From Alistipes sp. (GTDB lineage Bacteria > Bacteroidota > Bacteroidia > Bacteroidales > Rikenellaceae), in assembly GCA_017623115.1 (NCBI GenBank), contig JAGAPT010000052.1, positions 51,558-115,557 on the forward strand: a stretch of DNA of 64,000 nucleotides. Direction: 5' to 3'. This document shows positions 36,476-50,621 of the stretch, piece by piece (the stretch's first letter is position 1; every line of letters begins with the position of its first letter). Under the pieces are notes generated by a model. It saw nothing but the letters and a program-made list of their open reading frames with translations, had not been told where the DNA came from and ran no database searches. The position numbers and the translations under genes are program-made.

Positions 36476-37767
36476 TATGCCAAGGTCTTTTTCGGAAGCA
36501 GCAGTTGCAGGATGAGCCATGCGGCGAGGTAGGCTAACCCGGCCATCAGGAAGACCACAAAGTAACTGCCGGTCAACTCCAATACATTACCCACAGCCGA
36601 GGCAGCCATGACACCACCCACCGAGCCGGCAAAACCGGCCAGCGAGGTCATTGTAGCCACACGGCTCTTGGGGTAGTAATCCGAGACAAGCGTGTAGATA
36701 TTTGAGGCCCAGCCTTGGTGTGCGAAGCAGGCTATCGAGATGATGCCGATGGCTATCCAGAGGGCTGCATTGGCCTCACACCATCCATTGACCTGTGGAA
36801 TGAGCAGCACGGGGACTACCAGCAGGGCGCAGGTCAGCAGAGCCGCCTTACGCGAGAAGGCCACCGAATGCCCCTTCTCGATGAGGGACGAGGAGAGGTA
36901 GCCGCCAAAGATGCCGCCGAATGAGGAGAAGGTGTAGATGATAATCAGCGGCAGAACCATCTGCTGGATGTTTACGCCGTAACTCTTCTCCATGAAGTCG
37001 GGTGTCCAAAAGAGGAAGAACCACCAGACCCAGTCGCAGACGAAACGCGAGAGGGTGATACCGAGCGTGGCACGTTGACGTAGCAGTTCGCCCCAGGCGA
37101 TTTTCTCTTCGACAACCGCCTCGGATGCCGTTGCATCGTCTTGGTGGATATAGGCCAACTCGGCTGCTCCGACTCGTTTCGATTGGTGGGGCAGACGGTA
37201 GATGAAGAGCCAGGCCACCATCCAGATGAAGCCCAGCGAGCCGGTTACGATGAAGGCGATTTGCCATCCGTAGGCCACCGTGAGCCCCGTGACGATGATG
37301 GGTGAGAGGACAGCACCGATGTTGCTGCCCGAATTGAAGATGCCGGTGGCCAAGGCACGTTCACGCTTGGGAAACCATTCGGCTGTTGCCTTGATGGCAG
37401 CCGGGAAGTTGGCACTCTCGCCAATGCCGAGCAGGAAGCGAGCCAAACCGAATCCGAGGGCTCCACGAGCAGCGGCATGCAGACATCCGGCCAAGGACCA
37501 GACAGCAATGGCCAGCGCATAGGAGATGCGTGTGCCGAAGCGGTCGATGAGGCGGCCGATGAAGAGCAGACCAATGGCATAGGCGGCCTGGAAGGCTGAT
37601 ACGATATAGCCGTAGTCGGCCTCCGAGAGGTTGATTTCGTCGGCAATGACGGGCTTCAGCATACCCAGTACCTGCCGGTCGATGTAGTTGATGGTCGTGG
37701 CGAAGAAGAGCAATGCCACTACCGACCAGCGGTATTTTCCGATGTTGGAGGGTTGGTTTACTGGCAT
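36475..37767 (-). CDS. MFS transporter, ACS family, ExuT-like (hexuronate type)
   Basis: 430 residues, twelve predicted membrane segments. TTINYIDRQVLGMLKPVI, GRLIDRFGTR, LGIGESANFPAAIKATAEWFPKRERA and GIFNSGSNIGAVLSP are the hallmark segments of ExuT/hexuronate carriers. The ATG at 37767 overlaps the end of the upstream UroD-like gene by 10 bases, so translation is coupled. It pairs with a FucP-type symporter in the same operon. The substrate is inferred only by family. Confidence 0.85.
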   Translation of the reverse strand: MPVNQPSNIGKYRWSVVALLFFATTINYIDRQVLGMLKPVIADEINLSEADYGYIVSAFQAAYAIGLLFIGRLIDRFGTRISYALAIAVWSLAGCLHAAARGALGFGLARFLLGIGESANFPAAIKATAEWFPKRERALATGIFNSGSNIGAVLSPIIVTGLTVAYGWQIAFIVTGSLGFIWMVAWLFIYRLPHQSKRVGAAELAYIHQDDATASEAVVEEKIAWGELLRQRATLGITLSRFVCDWVWWFFLFWTPDFMEKSYGVNIQQMVLPLIIIYTFSSFGGIFGGYLSSSLIEKGHSVAFSRKAALLTCALLVVPVLLIPQVNGWCEANAALWIAIGIISIACFAHQGWASNIYTLVSDYYPKSRVATMTSLAGFAGSVGGVMAASAVGNVLELTGSYFVVFLMAGLAYLAAWLILQLLLPKKTLA

Positions 37768-38891
37768 ATCTCGTGAATTTTACGATAGACATCTGCCTGC
37801 TCCTCAGGTGTTTCGCAGTAGGTTACCACGATGAGCTTCATGCCCGGTCGCCACAAGGCTTGCACCTTCTCGGTGACTACTTCGGCCGGACCTACGATGC
37901 GGGCGTTGAGCACTACGCCGGTGCCGGCAAAGGCCTCGGCAAATCCCTCGACGGGGTTGGCTCCCGGGTCTGTGGCGAGCGAGAAGGCTCCGTCGGCCAT
38001 GCGAATACCCTCGATGCGGGCAATCTCCTCCTTCTTGTCCGACCAGTTGCCGCACGAGTGGAAGACGGTGCCTCCGAAGCGGTTTCCGGCACGTTGCATG
38101 GCCGGTACGGCGACGGGAAAGTAGAGGTCGGGCGAGAGCATCGTCACCGTGTCGTCGCTCATGCCCAAGCCGTCGAACATGCGGCTCGAGGCGAAGCCGT
38201 GGCCGGGCTTGACGAGTGCCTCGCCGATTAACTTGCGTTGCGCTTCGGTAAAGTCGGCCAGGAGGTCGGCCGTGCGCTCCATGGCGATGGTCATCGAATC
38301 GGGGTCGAGGTAGAAATCGAGGTAGAACTGATTCGAGTCGATGATGTTGCTGAGCGTATTCAGCGGTGATTGTACGTCGCAGTAAGACATTGGAATTTCG
38401 CCCTTTGTGCGGTCGAGGAAGTACTCGACCATCTCCAACGTATGACGACCGATGGGGGTCTCGGCCACGGGGCAGAAGGGGGCGGCAACCAACTCGGCTG
38501 TCGAGCCAAATTTACCATCCACAGCGGGTGCTAATCCGGGCTCCCAGCGGTAGTCGAATCCGTAGGCCGAGGCGACTGTTCCCAAGCCATACCACGGCTC
38601 GATGAAGTTGGGAATGTCGGCCTCGAAGCGCATCGACTGCTCCAGAGCACCCAGTTGCCATGCAAGGGATCTCTTCGGGTCGTGGCAATCTTCGGCGAAG
38701 ACCTCCTTGACACGCATGCGGCGATAGACTAATACGCCCTCATCGGCCTCCCAAAAGGCTTTGCAACGCTCGTCAAGTGCAGCGGCATAATCGGCATAAC
38801 GCGCTCGGTCAAATTTTTCGGGTGCAATCGGTTGTACGGTGGTGGCCTGCGAATCGGCCAGGCTGGTATTGAATGTGTCTTTTGTAGCCAT
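37758..38891 (-). CDS. UroD-superfamily methyltransferase-like protein (MtaA-like)
   Basis: 377 residues from the ATG at 38891. An upstream in-frame start would lie in the flanking repeat. The TIM-barrel UroD/MtaA fold is recognisable. The zinc-binding pattern of methylcobalamin methyltransferases is present: H278-x-C280-G in FHSCGNW and C359 in VVTYCE. That favours a methyltransferase over true uroporphyrinogen decarboxylase, whose Arg- and Asp-rich motifs are not seen. No corrinoid-binding protein gene lies nearby. It is coupled to the ExuT-like transporter downstream, suggesting a role on an imported substrate. Confidence 0.72.
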   Translation of the reverse strand: MATKDTFNTSLADSQATTVQPIAPEKFDRARYADYAAALDERCKAFWEADEGVLVYRRMRVKEVFAEDCHDPKRSLAWQLGALEQSMRFEADIPNFIEPWYGLGTVASAYGFDYRWEPGLAPAVDGKFGSTAELVAAPFCPVAETPIGRHTLEMVEYFLDRTKGEIPMSYCDVQSPLNTLSNIIDSNQFYLDFYLDPDSMTIAMERTADLLADFTEAQRKLIGEALVKPGHGFASSRMFDGLGMSDDTVTMLSPDLYFPVAVPAMQRAGNRFGGTVFHSCGNWSDKKEEIARIEGIRMADGAFSLATDPGANPVEGFAEAFAGTGVVLNARIVGPAEVVTEKVQALWRPGMKLIVVTYCETPEEQADVYRKIHEICQ

Positions 38892-38901
38892 AAGGGGTAA
38901 T

Positions 38902-38933
38902 AGAGTAAAGAGGAGAGAGCAAAGAGCAAAGAG
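38902..38933 (+). repeat. Purine-rich AGAGCAAAGAG repeat, left copy flanking the four-helix-bundle gene
   Basis: A run of AGAGTAAAG, AGGAGAG, AGCAAAG, AGCAAAGAG units. It forms an inverted pair with 39356-39386 and shares a 26-base identical segment with the solo copy at 50558-50621. It lies just upstream of the start of the UroD-like gene at 38891. Confidence 0.8.
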
Positions 38934-38962
38934 AATCATGCAAAAGCTCCCATCCTGCGTTG

Positions 38963-39349
38963 TTAAAGATTACTATTTTTTTCTTTGTTTAGATTTAATT
39001 TTGCGGTTTTTATGCTTGCGGTCAGTAAAGCTATGATTTCCTTCAAATCGCTATTTAATTCTTCGAAACATGCTTGGTCAATCATTTCGCTTTCAACTAA
39101 AATCTCCAGCCAATATTGCGTTTCATCAGCCTCTTTTAATGCAATGGATAGTTTGCTGATAAAATCGGCCTTGCTTTGTGCATTCCAACATTCTCGCGTA
39201 TTTGCACCAATAGCAGTTCCACTACGCAATACTTGTCGTGAGATAATGTATTCTTTTTTTTCGGCAATCAAAGTATTGGAAAAGCGAATGATTTTAACTG
39301 CAAATCTTTTTGTTTTCTGAAAAGTGATACTATCGTGATGGTTAACCAT
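38963..39349 (-). CDS. Four-helix bundle protein (23S rRNA intervening-sequence protein family)
   Basis: 128 residues. I recognise the IVP family (PF05635-like) from SGTAIGANTRECWNAQSKADFISKLSIALKEADETQYWLEIL, presented in parts: SGTAIGANTRE, KADFISKLSIALKEADE and TQYWLEIL. The predicted structure is almost all helical. The family occurs inside 23S rRNA insertions and scattered in Bacteroidetes intergenic regions, and is related to Avd of diversity-generating retroelements. The gene is conspicuously AT-rich next to its GC-richer neighbours, lies 8 bases after the upstream UroD-like stop, and is bracketed by inverted purine-rich repeats. Function unknown. Confidence 0.88.
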   Translation of the reverse strand: MVNHHDSITFQKTKRFAVKIIRFSNTLIAEKKEYIISRQVLRSGTAIGANTRECWNAQSKADFISKLSIALKEADETQYWLEILVESEMIDQACFEELNSDLKEIIALLTASIKTAKLNLNKEKNSNL

Positions 39350-39355
39350 ACCTAT

Positions 39356-39386
39356 CTTTACTCTTTACTCTTTGCTCTTTCCTCTC
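39356..39386 (-). repeat. Purine-rich repeat, right copy (inverted relative to 38902-38933)
   Basis: On the minus strand GAGAGGAAAGAGCAAAGAG then TAAAGAGTAAAG. It overlaps the 3' end of the UroD-like gene at 39358, encoding its last residues EERAKSKE and its stop. Confidence 0.8.
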
Positions 39387-40431
39387 GGATGTTTTCTGCA
39401 ATACGATAAATCTCTTTTACACGTTCGTCGCGTACATTGCCATCCATGTTGACGCAGCAGATGCCGGTGCGATAGAGGTCACCCGAGGCTGCGACGCGCG
39501 TGGTGATAATCTTAAGCAACTCCTCCGACGAGTAGTCGTTGATCTCCACGGGATTCAGGCGCAGGCTGAAGAATACCTCGGGAAGTGCCTCGCGCAGCAG
39601 CGCAACATCGCCACCCCAACCCAGGTCGAGGAATTGTAGGTTCGGAAGTTGGGCGAATTGGGCTGCATGACGATGCGGGTCACGACCGCAGTAGTGGATG
39701 CCGTAGGGCTGGTATTTTGCACTCCATGCGAGGTCTATCGGGAGCAACAACTCCTCGTAATCCTGCTCCGAAATCATCGTGTGGCTGCACTCGGAGTGGA
39801 TGTAGAGCGGCTCGTCCATGAAACGGGCGATGCGGTTGACCGAGATGGATGAGGAGCCTGTTTGGCTCTGGATGTAACTGAAAAATCGCTCTACGACACG
39901 GCCGATCTGTGCAAAATAGGCCTTCGTGCCTTCGGGATCCATCATCATATCCATCAGCACCTGCTCGCCTTTGAGGTCGATGGCCAGATTCAGTACACCG
40001 CCCCAATTGATGTCGCCCGTCACATAGCCGTATCGGGCTTTGAGTTGTTCGATGAGGTGTTGCAACCGCTTGAATGCGGGGCTTTTGAAGGGAGCCTCCT
40101 CGTCGATGGTGAGCTCCTCGCGGTGGGCGCAGATAACCTGCGGAGCCGTGTCAGCACCATATTCGATGCGGCAACCGAGCATCTCCGACAGGAGGAAGCC
40201 TGCGGCCAGATGCACGGCTCCGATTTCGGGTCGTTCCTCGGCGTGGTGAGCACCCAGGCCACAATCGCCAAAGCGTTCGTAGAGGGTACGCTCCATGAGC
40301 TGCTCGTCAGCAACACGACGACGGGGGTCGTAGAAGAAATCTTCGTCAAAGACGATGCCCGTGTGCTTGTTCCACCACGAGGGGTGGAAAACCACATCAA
40401 CGGGAAGCGGGGTAGAGGTCAGTGGTTTCAT
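39358..40431 (-). CDS. UroD-superfamily methyltransferase-like protein (second copy)
   Basis: 357 residues from the ATG at 40431. An upstream TTG would add five residues. Distant paralogue of the gene at 37758-38891. The zinc ligands appear as H246-x-C248-G in GIHYCGRD and C325-C326 in RTGICCVN. VDVVFHPSWWNKHTGIVFDEDFF and the DEPLYIHSECSHTMI segment are characteristic of this uncharacterised Bacteroidetes subgroup. The last eight residues are encoded by the purine-rich repeat, so the original C-terminus may have been replaced. First gene of the operon ending in fucP. Function unknown, probably cobalamin-linked methyl transfer. Confidence 0.7.
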   Translation of the reverse strand: MKPLTSTPLPVDVVFHPSWWNKHTGIVFDEDFFYDPRRRVADEQLMERTLYERFGDCGLGAHHAEERPEIGAVHLAAGFLLSEMLGCRIEYGADTAPQVICAHREELTIDEEAPFKSPAFKRLQHLIEQLKARYGYVTGDINWGGVLNLAIDLKGEQVLMDMMMDPEGTKAYFAQIGRVVERFFSYIQSQTGSSSISVNRIARFMDEPLYIHSECSHTMISEQDYEELLLPIDLAWSAKYQPYGIHYCGRDPHRHAAQFAQLPNLQFLDLGWGGDVALLREALPEVFFSLRLNPVEINDYSSEELLKIITTRVAASGDLYRTGICCVNMDGNVRDERVKEIYRIAENIREERAKSKE

Positions 40432-50559: not shown

Positions 50560-50621
50560 AGAGGAAAGAGGAAAGAGGAAAGAGGAGAGAGCAAAGAGCA
50601 AAGAGGAAAGAGGAAAGAGGA
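50558..50621 (+). repeat. Purine-rich GAGGAAAG repeat, solo copy after miaB
   Basis: Starts at the stop codon of miaB with repeats of GAGGAAA, then GAGAGAGCAAAGAGCAAAGAG, then further GAGGAAA units. A 26-base segment is identical to the copy flanking the four-helix-bundle gene at 38908-38933, but no such gene is present here. Confidence 0.8.

Follow-up and report, generated by a model that had tools for sequence, protein, structure and literature searches.

The window, by which we mean the whole 64,000-nt stretch of Alistipes sp. DNA analyzed here, is part of a host genome (G000) of 2.19 Mb in 60 contigs. It contains a small gene that lies between two protein-coding genes of the same strand and is bracketed by short tandem repeats. 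The features of the locus are as follows.

37758-38891, minus strand: downstream neighbor, URO-D family, with a likely start at ATG 38891 from comparison with relatives
38892-39357: gap from the upstream stop codon to the downstream ATG, 466 nt
approximately 38892-39386: whole insert, counting the array in the tail of the upstream gene, from comparison with relatives
38902-38933, plus strand: left array (the 3′ arm on the coding strand), tandem 7-nt units AGAGTAA/AGAGGAG/AGAGCAA
38963-39349, minus strand: IVP gene (four helix bundle, S23-type), 128 amino acid residues; PF05635, TIGR02436
39354-39385, minus strand: right array (the 5′ arm on the coding strand), units AGAGGAA, AGAGCAA, AGAGTAA and AGAGTAA
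39358-40446, minus strand: upstream neighbor, 362 amino acid residues, its tail changed by the array

The small gene specifies a member of the 23S_rRNA_IVP family, since the curated cut-offs of both models are exceeded (PF05635: E = 2.1e-24, 86.2 bits versus 33.8; TIGR02436: E = 1.4e-29, 102.5 bits versus 24). The protein matches PDB 2rld at E = 9.2e-33; this structure and 2gsc, with five chains each, are its solved relatives. PF05635 was its sole Pfam match, both at E up to 0.001 and at E up to 1, with no catalytic domain; no transposase or nuclease family matched the protein, and the element encodes no Y1 (TnpA-like) transposase. A search for a second IVP gene in the host genome found only this one. 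The protein is kept by purifying selection, dN/dS being 0.04-0.17 in those pairs of relatives that have measurable dS (eight of 13), some of which are near saturation. The link between the IVP family and the Avd protein of diversity-generating retroelements, which the initial annotation had mentioned, is borne out as a remote relationship: with E allowed up to 1, Pfam bAvd matches four of the 11 members, the best of them at 9.4e-9. Unlike such retroelements, the host genome (a draft of 99.15% completeness) has no match to the reverse transcriptase family RVT_1 (PF00078), and a DGR-type cassette was rejected on this basis.

The initial annotation had described a small gene bracketed by inverted purine-rich repeats. 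The bracketing and the inversion were confirmed, one 25-nt pair being 92% complementary; the make-up of the repeats was corrected, as both arms prove to be tandem arrays of the 7-nt unit AGAGNAA in mutually inverted orientation. On the coding strand the left array reads CTCTTTG... and stops approximately 10 nt short of the downstream ATG. The two arms score 20.0 against each other, the highest value in 200 Markov-shuffled versions of the flanks being 14.5, and a chance inverted repeat is ruled out by these shuffles together with cross-paired flank controls. Scanning the 64-kb window with the pattern AGAGCAAAGAGCAAAGAG (at most three mismatches) gave 13 overlapping matches where 0.05 were expected, six of them in the two arms and seven in a third array at 50560-50619. 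This third array possesses approximately eight AGAGNAA units without an IVP gene and starts where a plus-strand frame reaches its stop codon.

The neighbors had been taken for two related UroD-like genes, which the Pfam and BLASTP searches do not confirm: only the downstream one matches URO-D (ORF 37758-38939, E = 1.2e-8), while the upstream one has no Pfam match at E 0.001 and shows no BLASTP similarity to its counterpart (E = 0.90). The longer version of the downstream frame, reaching to 38939, would run through the left array.

Both flanking genes were searched against 150 genomes of the family, and six relatives gave strong matches to both. In five of these (G127, G145, G119, G114, and G144) the distance from the upstream stop to the downstream ATG is 1-5 nt, as compared with 466 nt in the window, from which it follows that the feature in the window is an insert, as had been surmised from its sequence. 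In the five relatives the last residues of the upstream protein are EELKTK, EELKTE, or EQIKNEQR, whereas in the window its tail and stop codon are encoded by the array; the suggestion that the right-hand repeat had supplied a new ending to this gene is thereby upheld. Presence of the gene at this exact place in all relatives, which would have spoken for vertical inheritance, is excluded, five of the six lacking the insert. In the sixth relative (G066) the two genes are separated by a different, G+C-rich and palindrome-like sequence of 918 nt, which is devoid of an IVP gene and in which some TTGAATT-type heptamers can be discerned by eye.

The insert has terminal inverted arms; a target-site duplication is represented at best by the 5-nt sequence TATGG, found at the start of the IVP gene (39346-39350) and again at 38888-38892. 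A match of five nucleotides is weak evidence, and the pair may be a trace of the target. Several identities were tried and rejected. The Rfam search of positions 38700-39700 gave no match over the gathering threshold, its sole match being a nematode snoRNA below the cut-off (E = 0.54), which disposes of a known RNA family as the identity of the insert; group I and II introns were discarded since no Rfam intron matched in this interval at E up to 1. Placement inside a 23S rRNA gene was likewise dismissed, the insert residing between two protein-coding frames that are conserved in relatives.

The presence of comparable arms around other IVP genes was assessed by local alignment of the upstream with the downstream flank, arms being called at a score of at least 15. 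The family set comprised 41 of the 45 places found over the PF05635 cut-off in the 150 genomes, four weak places (L176, L177, L178, and one in G140; E = 1e-8 to 6e-8) being left out. Arms were found at 33 of the 41 loci, the best period being 7 in all 33, so that the supposition that inverted repeats accompany this gene family beyond the window copy is sustained; when sites shared between genomes were counted once, using clusters of neighbors, arms were present at 21 of 25 sites. Eight of the 41 genes fall under the threshold, which counts against the reading favored below. Control genes yielded no arms in the case of lpxB (0/30) and a single hit among 49 genes of the window, namely the IVP gene itself. 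Flanks cross-paired between different family IVP genes reached the threshold in 15 of 246 combinations, and weak IVP homologs below the cut-off possessed arms in none of six cases.

This architecture extends well beyond the family. In a sample of the phylum, 157 of 198 genomes contain a match to the IVP family and 153 exceed the cut-off; among the best-scoring 30 loci, to which the test was confined, 12 have arms, some of period 8, and 18 miss the threshold, which again speaks against the favored reading. Cross-paired phylum flanks scored at least 15 in three of 180 cases. Among Cyanobacteria, 28 of 59 genomes gave a match (24 over the cut-off), and arms flank 18 of 25 loci, some being at least 60 nt long and 12 of the 18 having a best period of 7. 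A mixed set of phyla revealed arms at 22 of 28 loci (best period 7 in 15), including those of Flavobacterium, Planctomycetes, Acidobacteria, Omnitrophica, Geobacter, Anaerolineae, Collierbacteria, and a Methanophagales archaeon. The latter genomes were picked for the presence of an AGAGYAA array, unlike the cyanobacterial sample, and their arm rate may therefore be inflated; an IVP gene over the cut-off occurs in 27 of 30 genomes chosen for a heptamer array, to be compared with the 153 of 198 and 24 of 59 given above for the phylum and Cyanobacteria. The periods of the cyanobacterial and mixed arms are mostly 7 and otherwise often 8, and cross-paired flanks of these two sets together gave one hit in 159. 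This part of the test did not include loci L437-L440, which are below the cut-off, L388, which duplicates the match of L151, or L410.

The arm units differ among elements (TTAGTTG, AATTCAA, GTCAACC, AATTCAC, GAGTAAA, AGTGGTT, and AGACGAG are examples), although the two arms of any one element agree. Elements of differing units may reside in a single genome, as in G044, where three of five tested elements score at least 15. By comparison, two sister elements of G149, which occupy neighboring gaps, share 29 of 31 nt of array, although their synonymous sites are saturated and their overall DNA identity is 78% over 460 nt; this suggests that arms are homogenized within a genome. The signal peptide and the lipobox cysteine of the gene downstream seem, in both G149 copies, to be encoded by the 3′ arm (L212, G149:C18, approximately 640-700 and 1960-2020; for instance, ITSVICSLLSVLFISC).

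IVP cassettes tend to lie in the sense direction of the genes around them. Neighbors on both sides are co-directional with the IVP gene at 28 of 41 loci in the family and 26 of 30 in the phylum, and the upstream neighbor alone at 35 of 37 and 28 of 28 callable loci, respectively; all four are raw counts free of a gene-strand baseline. Strands were called by amino acid log-odds; on test pieces, all of them drawn from its own training genes, this caller was correct in 29 of 30 and in 24 of 24 cases, and one call (L171) is contradicted by the translated lpxB and another (L175) looks wrong by eye. A caller based on ORF length, by which both neighbors were co-directional at 20 of the 41 loci of the family and at 26 of the 30 of the phylum, was dropped as unreliable in G+C-rich relatives.

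The gap upstream of lpxB is a hot spot, with IVP cassettes in G066, G113, G077, G104, G121, and G064, inverted array pairs lacking an IVP gene in G072 and G081 (by eye), and elsewhere either IVP copies or a gap of few nucleotides. An open frame ends within 28 nt of lpxB at 22 of 30 loci, where array-like sequence is possible as well, for example in G089. In the tree the G113 copy stands apart from the rest with weak support, from which at least two arrivals at this gap appear likely. The nearest relatives of the window IVP (L168, L159, and L212; group support 94/88) adjoin other genes. Many IVP sites are common to several genomes, and present mobility may therefore be low, a point against the reading favored below. 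At a further locus (L164, G044:C14) the flanking sequence, read by eye, apparently places an IVP cassette between the two halves of a coaBC gene.

Dispersed heptamer arrays abound in genomes that possess a strong IVP gene. Of 27 such genomes, 24 had at least two matches to an AATTNNN array, versus 14 of 101 without an IVP match (Fisher, 3e-13), and within the genus the same test gave 15 of 17 versus five of 31 (1.4e-6). This comparison drew on the 150 family genomes, 22 with weak IVP matches (15 of them with at least two array matches) being left out.

The insert in the window is one copy of a widespread, compact, and selfish-looking DNA insert. To the reading that we favor we assign a probability of roughly 0.5: it would be the mRNA-borne counterpart of the intervening sequence (IVS) of 23S rRNA, that is, a cassette in which pairing of the arms loops out the IVP gene, and whose spread is driven by IVP. 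It draws upon the empty sites of the five relatives, the arms at IVP loci with their periods and controls, the co-directional neighbors, the association of arrays with IVP genes, and the differing locations of close IVP relatives. The 23S rRNA IVS containing an S23p/IVP gene shares with the window element the protein family and the location of the gene within inverted, stem-forming arms, and differs from it in that the window element lies between protein genes, has 7-nt arrays on both sides, and is accompanied by similar lone arrays elsewhere in the genome. According to the available text on a Coxiella 23S IVS (PMC4990558), its stem measures 28 bp, RNase III cleaves it in vitro, and tandem GACAGAT heptamers, two or three depending upon the strain, precede the S23p gene; the protein is, per the authors, probably not made in vivo. 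It is on account of this stem, the RNase III cutting, and the heptamers that we regard the window element as an mRNA-borne form.

The cassette, an IVP gene enclosed by mutually inverted tandem arrays whose units measure 7 nt (in some cases 8 nt), lies in sense orientation between the stop codon of one gene and the start codon of the next. As we picture it, in the transcript the arms would pair as a long helix with the IVP gene looped out, bringing the upstream stop and the downstream start back into proximity, which would explain why inserts are tolerated in tight operons; the same helix is a likely substrate for RNase III. The IVP protein probably binds the RNA of the arms or a single strand and, together with an enzymatic partner, could aid the spread of the element and, in trans, of lone arrays. 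When the RNA of the whole element was folded, the minimum free energy and the centroid structures both paired the arms around the gene, which speaks for this reading. The fold as a whole was only mildly better than those of shuffled sequences (z = -1.5, with five of 100 equally stable), which counts against it, as does the finding of no catalytic domain match in IVP and no RVT_1 match in the genome.

REP/REPIN-RAYT systems consist of a gene flanked by a short genome-specific repeat, which is also dispersed through the genome and occurs as inverted pairs. The initial annotation had pointed to such elements, and part of the likeness stood. In the host genome the AGAG array pattern gives 78 overlapping matches versus one for the reversed control, so that here too the repeat that flanks the gene recurs elsewhere in the genome. 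A 400-kb portion of G066 contains 31 period-7 arrays, 26 of which are composed of AAAATTC, the unit of its own IVP arms; block shuffles and periods 5 and 6 gave no arrays and period 8 gave one. The arm unit is thus dispersed in both genomes checked for it, G000 and G066, and the tracking of IVP genes by arrays is a further point of likeness. Together with the array pairs devoid of IVP at the lpxB site and the sister copies in neighboring gaps of G149, this dispersal favors a DNA-level mobile element of REP/RAYT logic, in which IVP and a host enzyme recognize hairpins of array DNA and move or copy them, the lone arrays and gene-less pairs being non-autonomous offspring. What did not stand is the Y1 transposase, which IVP is not, and the units are 7-nt tandem arrays rather than palindromic REPs. 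The sense orientation and the stop-to-start placement would moreover be unexpected of a strand-blind DNA transposon unless selected, the window protein matches no transposase or nuclease, and no clear target-site duplication exists beyond the weak TATGG pair. We consider this alternative rather unlikely, and the interpretation offered with the initial annotation is, overall, partly supported.

Most arrays in G000 and G066 lack an IVP gene. Subtracting the two element arms, an inverted pair on contig C7, and one site where contig C43 ends from the 30 array sites of G000 leaves 25 lone AGAG sites; 20 of these start between -11 and +14 nt from a stop codon, and 21 of 23 callable ones run in the sense direction of the preceding gene. 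Of the lone arrays in G066, by comparison, four of 29 have a stop codon on the sense side and 15 on the other strand, and 14 resemble 3′ arms ahead of a start codon; the placement at stop codons is thus clear in G000 and unclear in G066, and is not generalized here. A hairpin, CAAGNCTGC..GCAGG, is present at 16 of the 25 lone G000 sites (L120-L149, L259-L273), where it forms part of a composite intergenic repeat, often being followed, as judged by eye, by sequence resembling TTTTGGGCGTACTCGCAAAATTCCCAAAACTCCC.

On a passenger model the arrays would be repeats born of slippage and favored at gene ends, through termination or mRNA stability, with IVP genes merely tolerated between them. The prevalence and placement of the lone G000 arrays suit this model, as do nine of the 101 IVP-less genomes, which hold at least ten array matches and render the array-IVP link less than absolute. 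Slippage, however, yields direct and not inverted pairs, and arms match within elements (33/41) far more often than between them (15/246). Furthermore, stretches from contig ends, 40 in number at one per genome and seven of them shorter than 20 kb, revealed no arrays in 364 kb from 20 genomes lacking IVP, as against 20 arrays in 345 kb from 20 genomes possessing it, five of which account for them all. The passenger model is accordingly improbable. The strict test for inverted pairs found one among the 31 arrays of G066 and one among the 31 of G044, which is to be set against the reading we favor; the G044 arrays, of several units and accompanied by ten of period 8, come from 309 kb chosen to include IVP contigs.

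That the IVP gene and its arms form a host-serving module regulating the flanking operon, for example as an attenuator or a small RNA-binding regulator, would accord with sense placement beside co-directional genes and with purifying selection, but is very improbable given that the neighbors vary between sites and that five of the six relatives with both genes of the window junction have no insert at all.

Returning to the mRNA-borne IVS, a broader proposition can be put forward tentatively: IVP cassettes with inverted heptamer arms may constitute a separate, domain-spanning class of minimal mobile elements, in which IVP spreads the cassette and, in trans, host arrays of one or more genome-specific units. 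The IVSs of 23S rRNA would then be the few landings in rRNA, and its debris would make up a large part of those heptanucleotide repeats of bacteria that lack an explanation. The data tie together two old puzzles, the role of the S23/IVP protein and the prevalence of 7-nt tandem units, and make it feasible to test both in ordinary strains; should the mobility reading prove right, this would be a transposable system lacking a recognized transposase or reverse transcriptase.

The short tandemly repeated repetitive (STRR) sequences of cyanobacteria are heptamer tandem repeats. In the available text of PMC4679880, TAACTGA heptamer repeats are recorded from Beggiatoaceae, Cyanobacteria, and Bacteroidetes, and its introduction, citing Mrazek et al. 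2007, states that 7-nt units prevail among the longer tandem repeats of many bacterial genomes. STRR and TAACTGA repeats resemble the arrays of the window in being direct 7-nt intergenic arrays of scattered phylogeny and without a known mechanism. The available text of PMC4679880 draws no link to IVP genes, and the terms "S23" and "four helix" have no occurrences in it. IVP genes are reported, in the accessible portions of the respective papers, within 16S and 23S rRNA inserts of CPR bacteria (PMC11270868), and genes for four helix bundle proteins are listed as unique to a strain or as part of putative phage regions (PMC8700078, PMC5524665). IVP also figures among the abbreviations of a figure legend in a CRISPR discovery paper (PMC10910872), and we would guess that a heptamer array mistaken for a CRISPR array lies behind the mention. 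The literature searched, a collection without bioRxiv and with few subscription papers, yielded no description of IVP genes as being generally flanked by inverted heptamer arms, the nearest being the heptamers of the Coxiella IVS. A divergent IVP-like gene of approximately 190 amino acid residues in Alistipes sp. RGIG1820 (L410) has nearby, as read by eye, repeats of approximately 10 nt (CTTAAGGTTA) rather than 7.
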